IMG/VR virus record: IMGVR_UViG_3300018017_000005
Coordinates: 1-59,887 of that record
Direction: 5' to 3' (one strand)
Length of the DNA stretch: 59,887 nucleotides
DNA from: a virus
Shown piece by piece: positions 17,133 to 52,001 of this stretch (position 1 is the stretch's first letter; each line of letters begins with the position of its first letter). Under the pieces are notes generated by a model. The model was not told the DNA's origin. It was given only the letters and a program-made list of their open reading frames with translations, and searched no databases. A program made the position numbers and the translations under genes.

Positions 17133-18398
17133 TTACGGGCCCGGTACAAGAACTGTGTTACTACCATCTGCAACAAATCCAGTCATCATCGCTCCTGACA
17201 AGATTGTACCAGCACCCACTGTAGTCATAATTGGCACAGGGGTTGAAATTAGGATACTGACGGCAGAACCGACGCAGGCAACAGGAGCAGAACCACCATT
17301 AATCGCTACGGCACCGCTACCACCACCCAACTGAAGACCGCTTGCGCCGTTAATCGACACACCCTGAGCTGCATTAATTGTCAATGACTGCTTTGTTGTC
17401 AGAGTGATCCCTTGGTCAGCCGTTATCTGAAGCTTTTGCTTTATACGGATATTAACGCTTGCTTCTGAGCGAAGAAAGCCGGCTCCGGTGCTGTCGAAGA
17501 ACATCTTCAGCTTAGTCAAATTAGCAATACCATCTACAGGAGAGCCTGCTTCCGCATTAAAACCTGCGGGAGCGATTACAAACTCAGCGACGATAGGACC
17601 ATTTGTCCCAATGTTCAAGCTGGCATTTGTAGAGGCCTCTCCAGCATCTCCTGAGGGCTCGGGAACAGGTTGATGCACCTGTCCGATGGCTACTCGAAGA
17701 GTTGCTTGGTCGTCGTTGGCGAATAATCGAAAAGTTTGACGAAATTCGGTCTGAGGATTTGTATCCGTAAAACTTGTGGACAATCCCCAGTTAATAGACC
17801 CGCCGGTATTGTGGTGCTCATAGTTCTGGCTAATGTCTGTGATTATGTTGCCAAGGGGTATGTAAATACGCTGGGCTAGCTGCGTTGAGCCGACTTGAAG
17901 GACACCGCCACGGTGCATGATGACAAAGTTGCCATCGCGCCCCTGCCAGACCATATCTCCTGGCTTACCGCGAGTACGCCCACCAGCAAATACGGCTCCC
18001 TGATTCGTGCCCGTTGTATCAGCCGCTTGCTCTGCCGCGGTGCTTGTGGATGGATCTTCTGGGATCTCCATCGGCATAATAAACGCCAGCACAAAAGGCG
18101 GTGGGCCATCGCTTGGGATGCACACGAGACACTTCGCGTTAACTTCTGGTAGGCAGTACCAGCCCTCACCACGATTTGAGTGTAGGTATGGCCCTGCTAC
18201 TTGAATATTTGGATAGTATTTCTGGTCAAACTGAGAGCGCACATCGACAGTCCACGTTTGCAGATTAATGTCGATTACCCTCGCCTCATGAATGAACGCA
18301 GGACCGCCGCCATGCGGCTGCGTCCAGGACGTCCGCATACTGGTACGCTCGAGAGGCGTCGGCGTTGGCGTATGCGGATCTGTAATATAGCGAGACAT
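17133..18398 (-). CDS. baseplate central spike (gpV/gp5-like)
   Basis: 421 aa. Residues about 35-115 look like the OB-fold of baseplate spike proteins (EARVIDINLQTWTVDVRS, AKCLVCIPSDGPPPFVLAFI). A middle part has the GKPGDMVWQGRDGNFVIMHRG pattern. From about residue 310 short beta repeats follow (IRIKQKLQITADQGITLTTK, then SLTINAAQGVSINGASG), as in the triple-stranded beta-helix of gp5, gpV and VgrG. The spike pierces the outer membrane during contraction. Its ATG overlaps the stop of the RNA polymerase gene (TAATG), so it is expressed with it. Fold assignment is by pattern. Confidence 0.75.
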   Translation of the reverse strand: MSRYITDPHTPTPTPLERTSMRTSWTQPHGGGPAFIHEARVIDINLQTWTVDVRSQFDQKYYPNIQVAGPYLHSNRGEGWYCLPEVNAKCLVCIPSDGPPPFVLAFIMPMEIPEDPSTSTAAEQAADTTGTNQGAVFAGGRTRGKPGDMVWQGRDGNFVIMHRGGVLQVGSTQLAQRIYIPLGNIITDISQNYEHHNTGGSINWGLSTSFTDTNPQTEFRQTFRLFANDDQATLRVAIGQVHQPVPEPSGDAGEASTNASLNIGTNGPIVAEFVIAPAGFNAEAGSPVDGIANLTKLKMFFDSTGAGFLRSEASVNIRIKQKLQITADQGITLTTKQSLTINAAQGVSINGASGLQLGGGSGAVAINGGSAPVACVGSAVSILISTPVPIMTTVGAGTILSGAMMTGFVADGSNTVLVPGP

Positions 18399-21300
18399 TA
18401 GTACGCGTGAGTAGGAACGTCTTTAAGCTCAGTATGCGTAAATCGATTGGCCGATGTAAGACCAAACTGGGCTCCGTAAGCCATGCCAGGTATAGGCGAT
18501 ACGCCGTGCAAATCTGACACAGCGCCCAAAGCGGCACTGCGCATAATACCTTTTCGCAAACCCTCGGTATTCAACTGCGCCATCCAGTCTTCTTGAACCT
18601 CGTGCGGAAGAACGTCGATACCCTTCATAATAGGCGTGTGCTGAATTGGCTGAAGACCTTGTGCAACCAATTGTTTATTGGCCTCTTGAACTTTAGCACG
18701 CGAAGCGTACTGTCCCTTTACCATAGTTTCATGGTCTCCTGGGTCAATAACGCGCGTAAGGTCACTGATAGCGCGTACTACAGTCTCCGTATTTTGGCGA
18801 CGGACACCCTCCCTACCGTAAATATCGTGTAGCTCCGTAGCCAAATGCTCTTGAACCTTCGCCATGTTTCCTGTGACTTCGTACAGGTCGTGCGGATTTA
18901 CGTGCGTGCGCGACGGGTCGGTCAGCATATCCCCGGCGTTAACCTTCATACCGACCTTGATTCCAGACCAAGTGTCACCACCTGGAAGACGCGTAGCCTC
19001 AACACCAGGTAATGGCTTAAACAATGGATTGCCACGAGCATCGTTAGGCAAATGGTGCGCCACGCCACCAATCCAAGCTACGTGGCCTGTAGGATCCTCT
19101 TCAATTTTCTCAATGACCCCAGACTTACTTGCCAGTTGTGCCTGATCAGCGATTACTCGTGGCAGTTGAGTCAACTCTTGCACGCGGTCAAAGTCATTCA
19201 CCAAGCTAGAATTACGCTCAGCAAGCCCTCCTGAATGAAATTGTTTGAGCGTAAGCTGAGTAGCTCTTTCTCCTAACGCCTGCGTAGAGAGAATGCCGAC
19301 GTTGGTTCCCAAGGCGTAGTGCTGTCCATTCGATGCAAGCCCAGCACACTTCTGGCAAACGCCTGTACCATTGTCACATTTCATAGTAGATCGCACAAAC
19401 AAAGAGGCGTTTTTGTCTGCTGCTTTTATCGTTGAAGCAAGCTGTGGCGTAACAATGGTGTCTTTCTTGTAAGTCACCCCACCAATCGTGTGGTCTTGCG
19501 CAAGCGTGCGGTCGAATACATCCTGAGAATGTACAGGGATAGAAATACCGTTCTCGGTACCGCAATCATGCGCAGTTACCTGCAACCCCATGGTTGTGTT
19601 CATAAGCTGCTTGGTGAAATAACCAGGCTCTCTCACCTCTTGCACTTTGAGCACAGAACCACGACGGGCACCCGACATCGAACGCCAGTAAGAAGCAAGG
19701 TCTAACCCCTCCGTATAGCTCTTTGTAATAGGATCGGGGATGACATGGTTATTGCTGTCCACCATCAGCATAGGCGCCAAGCGCAGCTGACGATATTGAA
19801 TCGCGCTGGGCTTTACACCTGCCTGCTGCATCAACGCCAAATTATTTGGATTCTTAACGTTCTTAGCCGCGTGCTCTTTCTCCATCTTCTCTGTAGCGTC
19901 GAACCAGGCAGTCACAACGTGATGCTCCTTCTCAGCATCACTGAGGTCTGTACGCGCCTGAATCTGATCTACCTTTTTCTTAGCTTCGGCTACGATAGGA
20001 TCCCTAAGCCCTTTGTCGGGAGTAAAATCGTTAAGGCTGAATGAGTGCGTGCCCACAGCTATGTCTGTGCCGTTCAGCGCAGGATGCGTCATCGGGATTA
20101 CACCGAAAGAGGTATTGAACCCCAAGCGCATGAGCTTAGAAGCTGAATCTGCAAAATCTGGCTTATGGTCTTTAGCAAGTTTCGTGTAAAGCTTATCTAC
20201 TCCTTTTTTATCCAGTGTCATACCCAGATTATGCAGAACGTCTTGCTGCATTGGAGCCGGGACAGCGGCAGACAAAAGCACACGACCCGCTGTAGTTACT
20301 TTGTTACCTACAGTTGCCTGATCTGTAACGCTAAGATGCCCCTCTTGTACAGCTTTCAATAAATCTTCGTGCGTATCAAAGACCTTTTTGCTGTCCCCAG
20401 TAACGCGCGAAAGCTTGAACAGACCAAGATTTGATTCCAGCGTAGGCTGATAAACAACCCTACCGCTCGATTCGCTGGTGATGTTGTTTGAGGGAAGCAT
20501 GCGCTTTGCCTCTTCTACCGCATCATGTCCTATGGGCACGAATGCAGCCATCGTGTCCCAGACAACCAAACCGCCGTTTACGGCAAAAACTTTTGTCTCT
20601 GGAACAACCAAGTCGTACACGCGTTGTTTACCCAGAGACACTACAGAATCAATCAGGTCCCAATGAACGTCTGTAGCCAACACTAAGCGCCCCCACGCAT
20701 CGATACCTTCAATATTGGCGGCTTTTAGATAACCCAAGGCTTTTACAGCAGACGCTCTTGACAGGTAAGGTGCCTCTTTACGAACGGATTTAACAGTCGC
20801 TAGCTCGCTAGAAAAGGACGCGTCGGCGCCACATGGTTCCTTACTCAATGCGAGCAGCTCAAGTAATCTATGCGTGATCGGTACAATGTCTAAGTTATCC
20901 TTAAGTAACGTAGAAGGCGCCGAGATAAAGCTATTAGAATAAGGCCCTTCATGCGGAATATGACGCAAGACCGGAGAAAGACGTCCTATAGCCTGCGCTG
21001 GCGATAAATCTCGTACCTCTCCAGTCTCGTGGTCGTATACACATAGAGATTCATTCATGGAGGCTTCTACACTTAGACCCCTACGCATCGTGATGCGTGC
21101 GGTATCGCAGCCTTCTTCGATAGTAATATCTGTAGCCTTAGCCATTATACTATCTGCTGTCGCATGGTGGTAAGACCAAACCTCAATACCGGGCGGGAGC
21201 GAGTAAACAGACGCACCGTGCCTATCTACGCGACGTGTCGCTGCGAGATAAGGAATGTCCTTCAGCGCTGCATCTACCAGGTAACCCTGCGATGTCCTTG

Positions 21301-24300
21301 CAAGGATCTTCGTACTACCAGCAAATTTCATAGGTGACTCCTGAGGCCTAGCAAGCGCCTCAGGAGAGTCACGCCATAGCGCTTCAGGAATTGTCAAGGC
21401 TACTCTTGTACGACCTACAAAACAGTTACCATCAAAGTCCGCACCGAGGCCACCTGTTACTAGTGGGTGTATTCGAATTGCTTTACCTGGAGCGCGCTGC
21501 GCCCAAAATGCTTGAACACTGTGCTTATGCAGAACTGGGTCTCGCTTAAGCAAAACAGGTCGTTCCGCCATAACTCTATCCAGCGCTTTGTAAACAAGAG
21601 GATCTTTCTTACCTTGTTCAGCAAGCAAGGTATGCGCCTCTCGTGGAGTACTGGCGGCACCTAGCTCTTGAAGCTTTTGTACGACAAAAGGTCGAAACAG
21701 ATCCAACGCCTTCTTTTCTGGCAATCCGACGTAATCCAAATGAAGCCCGGCGTCTGGGGTTATTGTTCCGCGCATAGATAGGTCTTGTCGCCGGGACAAA
21801 AGAGTATCCTGGAACATACCTGTTTTAGGCGCACGGCCAGCAATCTGTAAAAGGATTCCCTTGGGATTCGTTCCGCGCTTTTCCCAGTTCTCTCCAACTC
21901 CCATAAGCGCCTTTACACTATCGTACAAAGCAGCTCTGTCTTCTTGTTTATCGTGGTCGCTCAAATACTTATAGTTGGGCCCCTGCATCTGAGATGCGAT
22001 ACCACCCGCTTGAACATAGAGCTTATTCAGATCCGCCTGCAGAATGTTGCCATTAGGCAGCACGCCAACAGGGCGCATAATAGGAGGAATAACAGGCAGA
22101 TTATTTAGGATATAAGCGTCTTTTGGATGAATTCCCGCTGTATCCAGCGCGGACAAATATCTTACGCGCTTTGACAGCGCATCGATCTTTTCTGTCCCAG
22201 TTCTATGCGCTATATTCTCTGGGATCTTGTACTTATCCAAATCCTTTTGCGCCTGAGCCAACTCTGCCTTTAGGTCAATGCGCTCCAACAAATGCGCGAT
22301 GCCAGGCCCTCCTGCTTTGGCGCCCTCAGTGCCTAAAGGTACAATCTTCCCATCCTTTACCGCGGATTTGCCCTCGATAATATCCGCATAAGCACCCTGT
22401 TTTAGCCCTAGTACCTTTTGAATAGCATCTTCAAAAATTGGGTTAGGCACAGGCTCTGGTAATTTGATGTGGGACCAATTGGTACCATTTAATCCGCCCG
22501 TAATTACAGGATCAAGCACTCCGCCTTTTCTAGGTACAGGCTCCCCGTGCCTATCCATTTTTGTGTAAAGGGCATAAGCCGGCTCAGGCAGCTCCCCCTT
22601 GCTCATGGACAACACCTGCTTATCCGTCATCGGCATGACTTGAATTTGATGCCCCTTTTTTACGACATCAATTCCGGCCGCGCGGAGCATGTCCTCGAAT
22701 TTCTGGAAGGCAAATGTCTTCTTGGGTGGTGGCGGAGTCTCTCCTGTTTGAATCGCTCGCCATACTTCGTTATGAAGACTGTCCCACTTCTCTTTACGGT
22801 CTGGACCTTCGCTCTTCCAAGTTTGGAATTCCCTTATATTATGTACCGCTCCATGTCCGAGAAGGCCGTACATGCCTAGATTACCCATGGACTGCCCACC
22901 CGTCTTACCTCCTTGAGATGGCAGCAGTGTCTCCGCGTCATAAGACTCAGGCTCTGCCCCTTCCAATGGCATACCCGACCTGGCGCTCACCTTTTTATCG
23001 ATCTGGAAATTGAGCTGAAGCATGTGCTGTTTACCTGTAAGCGCATGCCCCAAAGAGTGACCGCTAATTGGATCAATCAGCTCTTCTGTGTCCGATAATC
23101 CATGAGTAGCCAGCTCCTTTTTGACCCTATCGAGCGCATCAACACCGGGCTCAAAATTGTTAACGATGTAGGGCTTACCTGTCTTCTCAGCGATCTTAGA
23201 CGCGACAGTTTCAAGTATCTGTCCAGGATTAATACGCCCTGGGACACCGCTTGGGCTAAGGAGAGCTTCTAATGGAGTCCCGTCCACCGTATGTGGCATA
23301 TCTTTGTCTGGCAAGATACATGAAATTACGCCTTTGTTGCCCGCTCTTGCACTGAGCTTAGACCCTACCTGGAGAGGCTCTACTGTCTTTACGTGCACAG
23401 TTACATTGCCACTGCTATCTCTGCGCACACCCACTACTTCTCCTGGGTGATCACCCTTCCAAGCAAGGCTGGTGTCTAGCGTCTGGCTACCTAGGCTTTT
23501 ACGAATTTTACTAAGCGAAAAAGAGCCGTGGGATTCAAATGGCCTTGAAGCCACAACGAGCGGATCGCCAGGCTTAACTATCTGGCCTACGCGAACAATG
23601 CCCTCGTCATCCAGCCCAGCGAGCTGGCTCTTTTCATACGCAGTAGGGTGCAGTGCCTTAAACTTCGATAGGCCGGTAATTGCGTCTGGGCCCAAGGTAA
23701 CTGATGGCTTATGCATGTGCTCGCTAGCCATTTTCTGAGCCGCGGTTTCGCTAACTACAATCCCATCCTCAAAATTCAAGCCCTTGTAATTTACGTAGCC
23801 AACCCTGAGGTTCTTGCCTAGAGCCAACGTGCCATTACGCGTGAAGTTATTATCAGCCAACAGCTGCCCACTCTTTACCTCATCACCTTCTTTAACAACC
23901 GGGGTGCTGTGCAAAACAGCCTTAGCGTCATTAAGCGGGTAATTGTTATAGATGCTAACGCGCTGTTCTTTACCATCTTTTCCTGTGAGCGTAATAGCAT
24001 CAGGTGTTACTGAAGTAACCTTACCCTCAATAGGAGCGATGTGAGCCGACTGGCGTCCAATAAAATCCTCAAAGGTCCGAACACCTTCTTGGCGCCCTGT
24101 ACCTGACTGAACGAGCGGCGCATCACGGTCATGAAGACTAATAGCCTGCTCGATGTGGTGTGTGGCGTAGCTGACCCTATTCCCAGAGTTATTCCCCATA
24201 AAAGGGATGAGGTTAGTGGTGTAACTAAATAGCTGACTGGGACTACGCATTACGTAGTCGGCGTCCTCAAACTTGCCAGTACCCAGATCATTACCCTTTT

Positions 24301-25687
24301 TTGACAGGGCTACGGTTTTAGCGACAGGAGTGGGCGTGTTCTTGTTCCATGTAACCTGGTCAGGAAGAACAACTACTGAATTGTGGTAAGCAACTGGGTC
24401 AATCTTGTCCATCTTCTTTGTCTTCAGGTTAAAGACAGAGATAACTGGATTGTTGCCCTCTTTAGTAACTCCTAGAGGAAGGCGGCAAGTAATACCTGTC
24501 TTACCACCTTCTGGCGTCGCCAACCCATCCAAAAAACCGAGATGGCTAGGACTTACCAGTTTGGCCGAATCGCTAATAGCGTTCTCGCTTTGAATTCCAC
24601 CAGGACCCATAATGGTGGTTTGAAAGCTGGAGGAGAGCATCTCAACGGGGTTTACTTGGTCGGCATCTCTAGCCAACGAGTTTGCTGTAAACGTGGCTTT
24701 TACCGGTGCGTCGAACATGCCCCCGCGAACTACCTGACGAATACTTGTAGCGGTGTTGATCTGCCTATCCGTGCGTGCCTTCAATGCCGCCTTCGTCTTC
24801 CAGGCGCTTAAACTGTCTTTGGCGAAATCAGCTACTGTACGAAGATCCTTAAACGCCAAACTATCCCGCTCATCTTCTGGGATATCACCGCGCTGCACCC
24901 CAATCATTTTTGTGGTGGTGTCGTGCAGCACAGCACCGTTTACATTGGCGTAAGGCTTGCCTAACGTGATGAGTGTAGAATCAGGACGAAGCTTAGACTC
25001 TGCCATGGTATCAATGAAATACTGCCTCGCTTCTTCCGTGCTACCTGGCGCCCTCTTCTTGTCTGCCTTATAAAAGCGCTCCAGAGCCGTACCCGTTGCT
25101 CTTGCGCTTCTATTAGCCGCCAAGATGCCCTTACCCCAGGATTTCTGAAGAGTGTCGTCATCGACACCAAGCTCTTTCATCAAGGGATATACGGGGATAT
25201 TCTCAGAGGTACCGCGCGACATAGAAAAAACGTGTGTCTTTGGGTCCAACGTAACGTCAAAACGGTTCTTACCCTGAACATTGAACTGAGTTTTTAGCTC
25301 GCCGTTCTCTTTACGCTGCGTGTACGCACCAGGCTTAAGACGCCACTGGTTATCGAATTGGCACTCGCGGCCATCGACAATGTACGAATAGCGCTGTGTC
25401 ATGTAGGGCAAATCGGTAAGCTTGATCGTCTTTTTATCAACGACCGCTCCTGTGTCGTTGTTTTTCATAACAAGCGTACCGAAAACAGGCACTGCCCAAG
25501 ATTGTCCATTGATCTTGGCTTGATGCTGACCTGTAATGTCAGACATGTCCTTATCGCCCTCGCGGACATCCAAGGATTCCAGGTGAATGCTCTGCTTGGA
25601 CCCCACGATAGGAAAATGAGATCGAATCCCATCGACTACGTTTTGCTGCAAGTCGGCAAACGCTTTCTTAGGGTCTAGATAGGCCAT
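18398..25687 (-). CDS. fused beta-beta-prime DNA-directed RNA polymerase with intein
   Basis: 2429 aa (2139 after removal of the 290-aa intein). The beta part has TNLIPFMGNNSGNRVSYAT (about 490), GYVNYKGLNFEDGIVVSE (about 635), GNKGVISCILPDKDMPH then GVPGRINPGQILET (about 775-822), and a beta C-terminal GMYGLLGHGAVHNIREFQ. The beta-prime part has NLPVIPPIMRPVG, PVLLKRDPVLHKHSVQAF, GKAIRIHPLVTGG, the metal loop GADFDGN (1415-1421, split by the intein), NNITSESSG, a zinc-like CDNGTGVCQKC (about 2106), the trigger loop LTLKQFHSGG and a C-terminal clamp. All main regions of a bacterial core enzyme are present in one chain; alpha, omega and sigma are not seen. First gene of the leftward tail operon; TAATG-coupled to the spike. 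Confidence 0.95.
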   Translation of the reverse strand: MAYLDPKKAFADLQQNVVDGIRSHFPIVGSKQSIHLESLDVREGDKDMSDITGQHQAKINGQSWAVPVFGTLVMKNNDTGAVVDKKTIKLTDLPYMTQRYSYIVDGRECQFDNQWRLKPGAYTQRKENGELKTQFNVQGKNRFDVTLDPKTHVFSMSRGTSENIPVYPLMKELGVDDDTLQKSWGKGILAANRSARATGTALERFYKADKKRAPGSTEEARQYFIDTMAESKLRPDSTLITLGKPYANVNGAVLHDTTTKMIGVQRGDIPEDERDSLAFKDLRTVADFAKDSLSAWKTKAALKARTDRQINTATSIRQVVRGGMFDAPVKATFTANSLARDADQVNPVEMLSSSFQTTIMGPGGIQSENAISDSAKLVSPSHLGFLDGLATPEGGKTGITCRLPLGVTKEGNNPVISVFNLKTKKMDKIDPVAYHNSVVVLPDQVTWNKNTPTPVAKTVALSKKGNDLGTGKFEDADYVMRSPSQLFSYTTNLIPFMGNNSGNRVSYATHHIEQAISLHDRDAPLVQSGTGRQEGVRTFEDFIGRQSAHIAPIEGKVTSVTPDAITLTGKDGKEQRVSIYNNYPLNDAKAVLHSTPVVKEGDEVKSGQLLADNNFTRNGTLALGKNLRVGYVNYKGLNFEDGIVVSETAAQKMASEHMHKPSVTLGPDAITGLSKFKALHPTAYEKSQLAGLDDEGIVRVGQIVKPGDPLVVASRPFESHGSFSLSKIRKSLGSQTLDTSLAWKGDHPGEVVGVRRDSSGNVTVHVKTVEPLQVGSKLSARAGNKGVISCILPDKDMPHTVDGTPLEALLSPSGVPGRINPGQILETVASKIAEKTGKPYIVNNFEPGVDALDRVKKELATHGLSDTEELIDPISGHSLGHALTGKQHMLQLNFQIDKKVSARSGMPLEGAEPESYDAETLLPSQGGKTGGQSMGNLGMYGLLGHGAVHNIREFQTWKSEGPDRKEKWDSLHNEVWRAIQTGETPPPPKKTFAFQKFEDMLRAAGIDVVKKGHQIQVMPMTDKQVLSMSKGELPEPAYALYTKMDRHGEPVPRKGGVLDPVITGGLNGTNWSHIKLPEPVPNPIFEDAIQKVLGLKQGAYADIIEGKSAVKDGKIVPLGTEGAKAGGPGIAHLLERIDLKAELAQAQKDLDKYKIPENIAHRTGTEKIDALSKRVRYLSALDTAGIHPKDAYILNNLPVIPPIMRPVGVLPNGNILQADLNKLYVQAGGIASQMQGPNYKYLSDHDKQEDRAALYDSVKALMGVGENWEKRGTNPKGILLQIAGRAPKTGMFQDTLLSRRQDLSMRGTITPDAGLHLDYVGLPEKKALDLFRPFVVQKLQELGAASTPREAHTLLAEQGKKDPLVYKALDRVMAERPVLLKRDPVLHKHSVQAFWAQRAPGKAIRIHPLVTGGLGADFDGNCFVGRTRVALTIPEALWRDSPEALARPQESPMKFAGSTKILARTSQGYLVDAALKDIPYLAATRRVDRHGASVYSLPPGIEVWSYHHATADSIMAKATDITIEEGCDTARITMRRGLSVEASMNESLCVYDHETGEVRDLSPAQAIGRLSPVLRHIPHEGPYSNSFISAPSTLLKDNLDIVPITHRLLELLALSKEPCGADASFSSELATVKSVRKEAPYLSRASAVKALGYLKAANIEGIDAWGRLVLATDVHWDLIDSVVSLGKQRVYDLVVPETKVFAVNGGLVVWDTMAAFVPIGHDAVEEAKRMLPSNNITSESSGRVVYQPTLESNLGLFKLSRVTGDSKKVFDTHEDLLKAVQEGHLSVTDQATVGNKVTTAGRVLLSAAVPAPMQQDVLHNLGMTLDKKGVDKLYTKLAKDHKPDFADSASKLMRLGFNTSFGVIPMTHPALNGTDIAVGTHSFSLNDFTPDKGLRDPIVAEAKKKVDQIQARTDLSDAEKEHHVVTAWFDATEKMEKEHAAKNVKNPNNLALMQQAGVKPSAIQYRQLRLAPMLMVDSNNHVIPDPITKSYTEGLDLASYWRSMSGARRGSVLKVQEVREPGYFTKQLMNTTMGLQVTAHDCGTENGISIPVHSQDVFDRTLAQDHTIGGVTYKKDTIVTPQLASTIKAADKNASLFVRSTMKCDNGTGVCQKCAGLASNGQHYALGTNVGILSTQALGERATQLTLKQFHSGGLAERNSSLVNDFDRVQELTQLPRVIADQAQLASKSGVIEKIEEDPTGHVAWIGGVAHHLPNDARGNPLFKPLPGVEATRLPGGDTWSGIKVGMKVNAGDMLTDPSRTHVNPHDLYEVTGNMAKVQEHLATELHDIYGREGVRRQNTETVVRAISDLTRVIDPGDHETMVKGQYASRAKVQEANKQLVAQGLQPIQHTPIMKGIDVLPHEVQEDWMAQLNTEGLRKGIMRSAALGAVSDLHGVSPIPGMAYGAQFGLTSANRFTHTELKDVPTHAY
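20555..21424 (-). mobile_element. intein in RNA polymerase catalytic loop
   Basis: 290 aa, residues 1422-1711 of the polymerase, between GADFDGN and TMAAFVP, exactly in the metal-binding loop of beta-prime. Block A is CFVGRTRVAL with Cys1; the block B region is VEASMNESLCVYD; block F is RVYDLVVPETKVFAVNGG; the end is LVVWD followed by Thr+1. Relative to standard inteins, block B Thr-x-x-His reads Ser-Met-Asn-Glu, the penultimate His is Trp and the final Asn is Asp. No LAGLIDADG motif is evident, so the roughly 150 extra residues may be a decayed endonuclease. Whether it splices is open. Confidence 0.85.
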
Positions 25688-48833: not shown

Positions 48834-51800
48834 ATGTGGAACATCAATGCGCCCACAGCGCAGTATCTAGGGCATACCTACCCGACGCTTCCGACACGTC
48901 CAGTAACCAGTCCCTTCGAGATTCAACGCGTAATTAACGAGGTTTACAACTCGCCGTTCGTGGCAATCGATACAGAGACCACAGGGCTTGTGCAATGGCA
49001 AGATGTGCCGCTTTACTGGTCTCTTGCTTGGGGTAACCAACGAGCTACGTTACACGCGGATTTACTACCATACTTCGACGTTTGCTTTAACAACCCAAAC
49101 ATCACTTGGGTGCTAGCAAACGCCAAATACGACATGCACATCTTGGCCAATTACGGACATATCCTCGTAGGTATGTGGCGGGATGTCCAAGTTATGCACG
49201 GCCTTCTATTCGATCACCTCCCGCACAGGCTGAAGTTCATCGCGCAGCAACTACTCAATTGGACGTGGGGTGACTTCCAGGACCAATTTGGAAAGATCAC
49301 TAAGAAACAAACCCCAAGGCAATTGATAGAAAAAGCCGAACAAGAAAACTTCGGTCTGTTGGTCGAATACGCAGCGAACGACGCTTGGGGGACGCTGAAG
49401 GTCTACGAGGCTTTGGAAGCGATGCTCAGGCACGAAGCTACCTTCTCCTTGTTCCGCAAACACCCACCGTACATTGATACATTGTGGGACTATTTCACAA
49501 AGGTAGAATCACCGTTTACTCGCTCACTGTGGAAGATGGAACGTAGGGGTGTAAAGATCGACCGTGCCCGCTTTGCTGCTGCAAAGCCAGAAGCGGAGAA
49601 AAAGCTCGATCAAATATCCCGAGATATGACTCGCTTAGCAGGATTTCCCTTGAACCCCAATTCCCCTGCGCAAGTCGCCAAGTACATGGATTCACAGGGG
49701 TACAAGCCCATTAAATGGACTAAAGGGGGTAAATACGGGGTAAGAAAACCCTCATGGGACGCCGACGTGCTGGAGCACTACGACGAAGACCCCGTTGTCG
49801 AGCTTATTCTTGAGCAACACGCCTATTCTAAGCTTTACGGAACCTATATCGTCGGCTTGGACGAGATGGTTGACCCATTCGATAGGATTCACTCTAGCTT
49901 TAATCAAACACCGCGTACTGGTCGCATATCCAGCAGTACGCCCAACCTGCAAAATTTACCTCGAGCGGAAAATGACCACTGGAATTTAAGAAGCGCATTC
50001 ATCGCAGAACCTGGATGTAAAATCATTGATTTCGATTTTAACCAGTTAGAGATGCGCCTTCTTGCCGCCGGAGCCGAAGAGCAAACTATGGTGGATATCT
50101 TCTTGCGCGGTTGGGATATCCATGCGGGCAACGCAGCTATGATGTTCAACGGAAACTATGAGGACATCAACGCGGCGAAAGACTTACTCAAGAAAATAGA
50201 CAAACTGAAGCTATCACCTGCCGATACGCTAACCGAGTGCGAGTCCGAAAGCCCTGGTATAAGCACCAGAGCTACAGCTGCAGGTAAGTCTTTACTAGGA
50301 TATTTGCACCAATGTGCAGAGGATAGAACTGGGGCAAAGAGTGTCGGCTTCGGGCTAAATTACGGTCTTGGACCAAAGAAACTAGCCAGGCAAATAAAGA
50401 CATCTCAAGCGGATGCCGTGCAGAAGATCGCACTGTACAAAGGCACATACCCAGCCGTAGAAGCCTTCATGAAAGAATCCGTAGAAGAAGGCCGCAGAAC
50501 AGGATTTGCTTTTACTGTAATGGGTAGACGCCGTAATATCCCGATGATTGCTTCTACGATTAAAGGGGAGCAGGCGTTAGGAGAAAGACTTGCCACGAAT
50601 ACCAGGATACAAGGATGCCTACCCGCACATGTGCGAATTTTAACGAAAGATGGATACCTACCAATTAAACAAGCGCCTGAGCTAGGCATCGCGTGGACAG
50701 GTACAGACTTCGCTCCTTACAGGAAGTTGGATAGAGGACCGTCAGAGCTGGCAGAACTGCACCTCAGTAATGGTCAAACACTTGATTGTGACGTACGGCA
50801 TAAGGTGCTTACTGTTGGCACACAGGCTTATGAATTTAAGCATTTTGACGATCTTCGAGAAGGGGATCAAATCTGTACAAGCCTAGCGCGCCCTCTGGAA
50901 TTCGGAAGTAACAATGTGCATGCGGTTCACATGTATTGGATGGGCTTTATGCTGGGTAATGCCTATACAAGCAAGGGCCCAGACCACAGAAATGCGCTAT
51001 CTGTAACCTTTGGCGACAGGTGCAACCGGTACGAGAAAGAAGTACGCGCTAAAGAGTATGTCAATTATATTAATCAAGCATTTGGAATAGCTACCCAAAA
51101 ACCTCGTGTACAAGAAGGCAAAATAACCATCGTTGTAGAAAGCGCTGGTGTGCGCCAATTCTACGAATCGCTAGGATACCCATGGGGCAAAACGGCCGAA
51201 GTTAAGACAGCACCTACAACGGTATGGACCGCGTGTCTAGAAGGAAGAAAATCCTTCTTATTGGGTATGCTAGACGCGGATGGACATTTGCACGCGACCA
51301 GCCCCAACATTCATTTATGTCAACGCCCGTTACTTCACGAGCTGCTTATTCTATTTCGCACTTGCGGTATAGAAGGAACACTACGCGACTTAGCCGATGG
51401 CTCCTACAGGCTTGATCTAGTGGGTAGCCAATGCGCTAGACACCTCAGCTACGGTAGCATACGCCGTAATACTATTCCTATGCCGGCGCCTAAGTGTGTC
51501 TATAAACGCTTTTTAACAGATGCCCCAGGCACAACGCTATCCCATACTGTTCTTCGCTCTAGGGTCCGTAGGGGCGGACACATTGGTGTCTACACGATAG
51601 CCGCCATGTACGAAAATAGCGGGTTACTCTTACCCACACTTTATGCGTCGCGCGCATTGGTACGAAAGGAACGGCTAGGAAAGGTAGATACTACATACAC
51701 CCTTTCAGTACAAGATCCAGGGCACCGTTTTGATTCTGAGGGAGTTATCAGTCAAAACAGTGCAGCAGAAGTAACTAAGATGGCGCAGCTGGCTATCGAC

Positions 51801-52001
51801 ACCGTAGGCTTGGATACACTGTTTAACTGCCACATCGAGCTACAAGTACATGACGAGCTGGTTTTTGAATGCCCCGAAGAGAACGTAGCTAGGGTTATGC
51901 CAGAAATCAAAGAATTGATGGAACATCCGTTCTCCATCGATCTTATCTGCCCACTGAAGGTAGAAGGTGGCTTTGCGAATAGCTGGGGAGAGGCAAAATG
52001 A
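48834..52001 (+). CDS. polA: family A DNA polymerase with 3-5 exonuclease and intein
   Basis: 1055 aa (674 without the 381-aa intein). The exonuclease has AIDTETTGL (D46, E48), ANAKYDMHIL and YAANDAWGTLKVYE. The polymerase has TGRISSSTPNLQNLP, motif A IIDFDFNQLEMRLLA (about 397), motif B AKSVGFGLNYG (about 500-510) and motif C LQVHDELVFE (about 1005). No 5-3 exonuclease domain is present, as in T7-type polymerases. The intein sits in the conserved NTRIQGSAAE segment between motifs B and C. No ribosome site is seen at the ATG, which follows the terminator at 48795 by 11 bases. Confidence 0.95.
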   Translation: MWNINAPTAQYLGHTYPTLPTRPVTSPFEIQRVINEVYNSPFVAIDTETTGLVQWQDVPLYWSLAWGNQRATLHADLLPYFDVCFNNPNITWVLANAKYDMHILANYGHILVGMWRDVQVMHGLLFDHLPHRLKFIAQQLLNWTWGDFQDQFGKITKKQTPRQLIEKAEQENFGLLVEYAANDAWGTLKVYEALEAMLRHEATFSLFRKHPPYIDTLWDYFTKVESPFTRSLWKMERRGVKIDRARFAAAKPEAEKKLDQISRDMTRLAGFPLNPNSPAQVAKYMDSQGYKPIKWTKGGKYGVRKPSWDADVLEHYDEDPVVELILEQHAYSKLYGTYIVGLDEMVDPFDRIHSSFNQTPRTGRISSSTPNLQNLPRAENDHWNLRSAFIAEPGCKIIDFDFNQLEMRLLAAGAEEQTMVDIFLRGWDIHAGNAAMMFNGNYEDINAAKDLLKKIDKLKLSPADTLTECESESPGISTRATAAGKSLLGYLHQCAEDRTGAKSVGFGLNYGLGPKKLARQIKTSQADAVQKIALYKGTYPAVEAFMKESVEEGRRTGFAFTVMGRRRNIPMIASTIKGEQALGERLATNTRIQGCLPAHVRILTKDGYLPIKQAPELGIAWTGTDFAPYRKLDRGPSELAELHLSNGQTLDCDVRHKVLTVGTQAYEFKHFDDLREGDQICTSLARPLEFGSNNVHAVHMYWMGFMLGNAYTSKGPDHRNALSVTFGDRCNRYEKEVRAKEYVNYINQAFGIATQKPRVQEGKITIVVESAGVRQFYESLGYPWGKTAEVKTAPTTVWTACLEGRKSFLLGMLDADGHLHATSPNIHLCQRPLLHELLILFRTCGIEGTLRDLADGSYRLDLVGSQCARHLSYGSIRRNTIPMPAPKCVYKRFLTDAPGTTLSHTVLRSRVRRGGHIGVYTIAAMYENSGLLLPTLYASRALVRKERLGKVDTTYTLSVQDPGHRFDSEGVISQNSAAEVTKMAQLAIDTVGLDTLFNCHIELQVHDELVFECPEENVARVMPEIKELMEHPFSIDLICPLKVEGGFANSWGEAK
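50616..51758 (+). mobile_element. intein with LAGLIDADG endonuclease in DNA polymerase
   Basis: 381 aa, residues 595-975, between NTRIQG and SAAEV. Block A is CLPAHVRILTKDGYLPI with Cys1; block B is GQTLDCDVRHKVLTV, keeping the His; the end is GVISQN followed by Ser+1, with Gln in place of the usual penultimate His. The middle holds a LAGLIDADG-type endonuclease: WMGFMLGNAYTSK (first motif, with Asn at the acidic position) and FLLGMLDADGHL (second motif, intact). Family A polymerase inteins are known at this conserved site. Splicing is expected; nuclease activity may be reduced because one catalytic Asp is changed. Confidence 0.93.

Follow-up and report, generated by a model that had tools for sequence, protein, structure and literature searches.

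The window, a single IMG/VR virus record 59,887 bases long, derives from a phage that codes for terminase, tail proteins, helicases, a family A DNA polymerase and, on the minus strand at 18398..25687, a fused beta-beta' DNA-dependent RNA polymerase of 2429 aa. This single ORF combines domains from the two large RNA polymerase subunits (Pfam RNA_pol_Rpb2_6, E 2e-53; Rpb1_5, 6e-17; Rpb1_2, 2e-14), its metal-B motif NFEDG is intact, and it stays open through a 290-aa intein (aa 1422-1711) that splits the catalytic metal loop. The NADFDGD motif of this loop is nearly invariant, and its three invariant Asp residues hold magnesium (PMC2605557). The phage also has a second intein of 381 aa (50616-51758, plus strand) within the DNA polymerase A gene (48834-52001); this intein has a weak LAGLIDADG signal, near-canonical ends (QG/CLPAH...GVISQN/S, slashes marking intein borders here and below) and the block B His, and the phage thus carries an Asn-ended intein alongside the Asp-ended one in its RNA polymerase.

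Along the RNA polymerase gene, with all coordinates on the minus strand, the first part of the metal loop, ADFDG (aa 1416-1420; 21428..21442), is followed by Asn(-1) with codon AAC (21425..21427), the intein (20555..21424), and Thr(+1) (20552..20554), which is the putative splicing nucleophile, such that the interrupted loop reads LGADFDGN/CFVGRTRV...VYDLVVPETKVFAVNGGLVVWD/TMAAFVP. Block A, CFVGRTRV (21401..21424), starts with Cys1. In block B, SMNESL (21044..21061), Glu (codon 21050-21052) replaces the His at position 10 (HisB:10), which is described as the most conserved intein residue. Block F, VYDLVVPETKVF (20585..20620), retains Asp at position F:4 and has Lys (20591-20593) at the usual place of His, and block G, GLVVWD (20555..20572), has Trp as the penultimate and Asp as the last residue, the intein ending in LVVWD before the Thr. 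Peptides predicted to span the spliced loop junction are GADFDGDTMAAFVP and GADFDGNTMAAFVP. The initial annotation had placed the insert exactly here, at 20555-21424, so that standard boundaries give a spliced loop ADFDGN-T, and had pointed to the Asn before Cys1, the Glu in block B, the penultimate Trp and the terminal Asp; the borders and all four residues are as it described.

The Pfam Intein_splicing match to the insert is weak (E 1e-4, under Pfam's own cut-off). Its AlphaFold (AF2) model (pLDDT 77) has the Hint fold with inteins as the best PDB matches (top 5o9i, E 1e-8), and the in-frame insert is present or absent at one exact site among homologous hosts, as in the intein-free relatives and the L003/L004 pair described below; the earlier identification of the insert as an intein is therefore upheld. 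The features of class 1 inteins are found at position 1 (Cys1 in the window and in all eight inteins of its type), at F:4 (Asp, in VYDL, invariant across the type), and at the C-terminal border, where the cyclising residue is Asp, a rare but accepted variant of the usual Asn (PMC4031507), and the +1 nucleophile Thr. The exceptions are HisB:10 and the penultimate His, the latter common but not universal in this class and replaced by Trp or Tyr in the window's type. A class 2 intein, with Ala1 and hence no nucleophile at position 1, is ruled out by Cys1, and a class 3 (WCT) intein by the presence of Asp rather than Cys at F:4. Because the LAGLIDADG endonuclease found in its relatives is missing, the window copy is a mini-intein. 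Judged by these features, we classify the insert as a class-1-like intein whose endonuclease has been lost and which is predicted to splice.

Relatives were gathered from IMG/VR by junction patterns and two alignment scans, and each was checked individually. This gave 27 distinct inteins at exactly this site of phage polymerases, from pattern scans that are not exhaustive (L240 was missed by an ADFDGDC scan despite a fitting sequence). They fall into two linked types. The eight N-type inteins (the window, L002, L017, L024, L026, L033, L034/L289 and L197, the last on a contig binned as Lentisphaera) have Asn(-1), Cys1, block B S-x-N-E-[ST]-[LV], the block F Lys and a [WY]D/T end. The 19 distinct D-type inteins (listed loci L003, L090, L140, L237, L239, L240 and L242-L262) have Asp(-1), Ser1 (16) or Cys1 (three), the block B His and a [WYQN]D/T or D/C end, with HN/T in L262 as the lone exception. 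The association is perfect, with Asn(-1) and Glu(B:10) in 8/27 and Asp(-1) and His(B:10) in 19/27, although the 27 inteins are not independent and host switches are the independent events; among aligned rows, the Asn/Glu pair is found in 7/7 N-type and 0/17 D-type sequences. Only a fragment of L289 was at hand when the pattern was defined, and its full sequence later matched at blocks B, F, G and +1. LAGLIDADG_3 is present in six of the first seven N-type members, and D-type inteins mostly carry a LAGLIDADG endonuclease. dN/dS is saturated for N-type pairs. Neither 50,697 named phage records nor the plasmid collection yielded a match to the N-type inteins, and 289 genomes of the phylum of L197 contain no member besides L197. 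Three D-type inteins (L244, L245 and L246) have Cys rather than Thr at +1 (WD/CM), a swap between two splicing nucleophiles. The intein of L262 (L262:7464-8522), with canonical ends (GD/S...VIVHN/T), forms a long branch in the intein tree and perhaps represents a separate invasion of the metal-loop site.

Several features thus recur across the site: position 1 is a nucleophile and +1 is Thr or Cys in all 27 inteins, AspF:4 is kept in N-type and nearly all D-type members, and the last residue is Asp in 26/27, usually after Trp or Tyr. The initial annotation had counted the Asp end and the loss of the penultimate His among missing splicing residues. The residues are as stated, but as individual defects these two do not hold up, being common to nearly all inteins at the site, including those with Asp(-1) and HisB:10, which indicates that an Asp end without a penultimate His is not decay; moreover, Asp-ended inteins are known to splice (PMC4031507). 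What is truly odd, judging by the alignments, is the linked pair of Asn(-1) and Glu(B:10), which marks one mobile clade, specialised for the polymerase metal loop, in eight polymerases. Because the N-type residue set recurs in seven polymerases besides that of the window, it is neither chance nor sequencing error.

When residue -1 is left out and B:10 is masked, the intein tree places the N-type inteins in a single clade (support 96/99), consistent with the N/E pair having probably arisen once. The polymerases that carry them do not group together on the extein tree (34 host polymerases), where the Asp/Asn state needs seven changes, at least six of them forced by well-supported branches. These trees therefore indicate that the Asn tracks the intein rather than the host; we conclude that it belongs to the intein, moves with it across hosts, and is coupled to the altered active site of the intein. 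The possibility that Asn is native to a host lineage was rejected, as no intein-free polymerase with Asn was found. Two allele pairs suggest how a host codon is carried along. The near-identical hosts L237 and L240 carry different inteins and differ only over about 360 nt upstream and about 180-630 nt downstream, their sequences being identical beyond these tracts over the compared extent; we read this pair as a natural snapshot of intein replacement with sharply bounded conversion tracts. L003 (with intein) and L004 (empty site) have 94.5% nucleotide identity over 600 nt upstream, most of the divergence lying in the 90 nt immediately upstream and none in the first 270 nt downstream. At the empty site the boundary can be set at GAC/ACC or equally at GGN/GAC, both Asp codons being GAC. 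Both pairs show the pattern left when host sequence is co-converted with the intein, a process that would explain how the Asn codon at -1 can travel along.

The intein-free RNA polymerases compared all have Asp at the third loop position, close intein-free IMG/VR relatives having ADFDGD followed by T, S or A, and a DFDGNTM scan of IMG/VR found no polymerase. The residue after the loop is Ala in 3/12 intein-free phage polymerases as against Thr or Cys in 27/27 intein hosts (Fisher p about 0.02, uncorrected for kinship). Among the polymerases surveyed, four in unverified 'phage' records, L278, L285, L286 and L287 (OR844998, OR846602, MT836236 and OR845682), have the bacterial loop ADFDGDQM and resemble host chromosomal rpoBC, and are probably contamination. 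In L277, L288 (Salmonella phage Arash) and L125 (Vibrio phage D69), beta' is encoded by two genes that break about 90 residues past an intact DYDGDA loop, a position unrelated to the site of the intein, and a split intein was therefore rejected for these relatives.

With ordinary boundaries, D-type inteins leave the native ADFDGD-T and N-type inteins ADFDGN-T. A product with Asn is expected to be inactive; in the related polymerase YonO, replacement of all three loop Asp residues by Asn abolishes activity (PMC5467207), while no report of a change in the third Asp alone was found in the literature examined. Thus, the earlier suspicion that something unusual happens at or after removal of the intein, raised by the mismatch between ADFDGN-T and the Asp of intein-free relatives, stands. 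An adapted host polymerase was dismissed, as no host column specific to N-type was found across the 300 aa before and the 400 aa after the intein. Rescue by a second, intein-free beta' gene was likewise dismissed: none is found elsewhere in the window, which is a partial genome, and N-type contigs of 178 kb and 164 kb each have a single beta' gene, the interrupted one. Because no intein-free Asn polymerase was found, no host change is shared, and the beta' gene is single in the large N-type contigs, the mature N-type enzyme most likely has Asp at the third loop position. This Asp could come from conversion of Asn(-1) or, in a shifted register, from the last residue of the intein.

Our leading guess, which we hold tentatively, is that the N-type intein splices in the ordinary register and that Asn(-1) is turned into Asp. 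Splicing would proceed by an acyl shift at Cys1, transfer to Thr+1, and release by the terminal Asp; with less certainty, Asn(-1) would become Asp before, during, or just after these steps, and the mature loop would be the native ADFDGD-T. The newly made polymerase would be an inactive precursor, requiring excision of the insert as well as the change of one residue. We know of no earlier case in which splicing is coupled to conversion of Asn to Asp, a step that would have to avoid isoaspartate. The ordinary register is supported by the nucleophiles at positions 1 and +1 in all 27 inteins, by AspF:4 and by the HN/T end of L262, and it fits the accepted chemistry of Asp-ended inteins (PMC4031507). 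By homology, HisB:10 contacts the N-terminal scissile bond (PMC4031507), and a Glu there would suit a base that promotes Asn deamidation, which would make GluB:10 the likely base for the conversion, although no precedent for GluB:10 as a splicing catalyst was found in the literature examined. In many inteins, Asp(-1) gives premature N-terminal cleavage (PMC11842431), which could plausibly explain a preference for Asn in an intein inserted here. An isopeptide-type reaction of Lys, Asn and Glu, involving the Lys fixed in N-type block F, was rejected, as three D-type inteins share that Lys.

Alternatively, the match between Glu and Asn could merely serve to bind Asn(-1), which would stay in the product. 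In such a scheme, splicing would be ordinary and the mature loop would keep ADFDGN-T, the Asn being tolerated or making the enzyme slow or conditional. No new chemistry at -1 would be required, and the intein pocket looks adapted to Asn, residue 103 being His in 16/17 aligned D-type rows and Glu or Asp in N-type. We nevertheless regard retention of Asn as unlikely, given that neither an intein-free Asn polymerase nor a shared compensating change in N-type hosts was found, and given the inactivity of the YonO triple mutant (PMC5467207).

More doubtful again is a shifted register, matching the ADFDG-D-T joining raised in the initial annotation. In this frame the Asn would be the first residue of the intein, a piece from Asn to Trp would be excised, and Gly would be joined to the last Asp, giving the native ADFDG-D-T without any residue change. 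Such a frame has its appeal: one rule yields the native product in 26 of the 27 inteins, the near-universal terminal Asp is explained, and N-type inteins could insert with no change to the host gene. However, it requires the chain to be cut on the N-terminal side of both Asn and Asp, while Cys1 and Thr+1 keep their ordinary positions, and the residue after the last Asp is always Thr or Cys; in addition, the ordinary frame suits the D-type inteins and is obligatory for L262, which occupies this site with HN/T and Asp(-1). Because we know of no intein precedent for either of the two cleavages, we favor conversion of Asn in the ordinary register.

About equally improbable is cleavage without ligation, which would leave a polymerase of two chains broken in the metal loop, the second starting with Asp or Thr. 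HisB:10 and the penultimate His are indeed absent, and phages commonly have split beta' subunits, those seen here being broken elsewhere; yet Cys1, AspF:4 and the +1 nucleophile, together with the terminal Asp, are retained throughout the N-type clade, Asp-ended G blocks lacking the His are also found in D-type inteins with HisB:10, and a broken catalytic loop has no known precedent. Finally, a decaying intein in a dead gene, as loss of the endonuclease and of several consensus residues might suggest, is very improbable and largely refuted by the same residues in eight divergent polymerases, frames open throughout, the intact NFEDG of the window gene, and the interrupted gene being the only beta' in the large N-type contigs.

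Altogether, we consider it an even call that this intein clade brings Asn into the RNA polymerase core and, on excision, either edits it to Asp or joins the chain one residue out of frame; should either be so, splicing would mend both the chain and the active site.

Inteins that end in Asp, that lack the penultimate His, or that sit in an active site are each known (PMC4031507, PMC4996933). Class 1 inteins ending in Asp or Gln resemble the window intein in Cys1, AspF:4, the +1 nucleophile, the Hint fold and, for those so ended, the last Asp, whereas the N-type clade differs in having Glu for HisB:10 and an altered -1 residue in a host catalytic motif (PMC4031507). Only two inteins without HisB:10 were counted in 2014, one a pseudogene and the other Tko CDC21-1, which uses Lys (PMC4031507). 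The D-type inteins share with the window the insertion point, a homologous splicing domain and the [W/Y/Q/N]D/T or D/C end (HN/T in L262), but have Asp(-1), HisB:10, mostly Ser1, and mostly LAGLIDADG. In the Ssp DnaB M86 intein, a bulky -1 extein residue compensates for loss of HisB:10 in the H73A variant, which is, however, a laboratory mutant with Ala at B:10, steric compensation and an unaltered extein residue (PMC6333167); that interplay of residue -1 and HisB:10 upon mutation was presented as the first case of an extein residue acting directly in splicing (PMC6333167). Inteins of archaeal PolD DP2 also lie within the catalytic loop of a two-barrel polymerase, but the host is a DNA polymerase, and the likeness is by description, not sequence (PMC4996933). 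In the literature searched, which mostly excluded subscription journals, we found no description of these polymerase inteins and none of a natural GluB:10 clade tied to a changed host catalytic residue.

The general view is that an intein does not alter its host. In at least six separate host lineages, however, the N-type clade puts another residue in place of a catalytic one that ranks among the most conserved in biology, and the most conserved residue of the intein itself has changed to match. Either splicing can include a residue change or a change of splice frame, or an RNA polymerase works without the third metal-binding Asp, and each would be surprising. The N/D and E/H pairs at this site thus provide a natural series for the cooperation between the -1 residue and block B.
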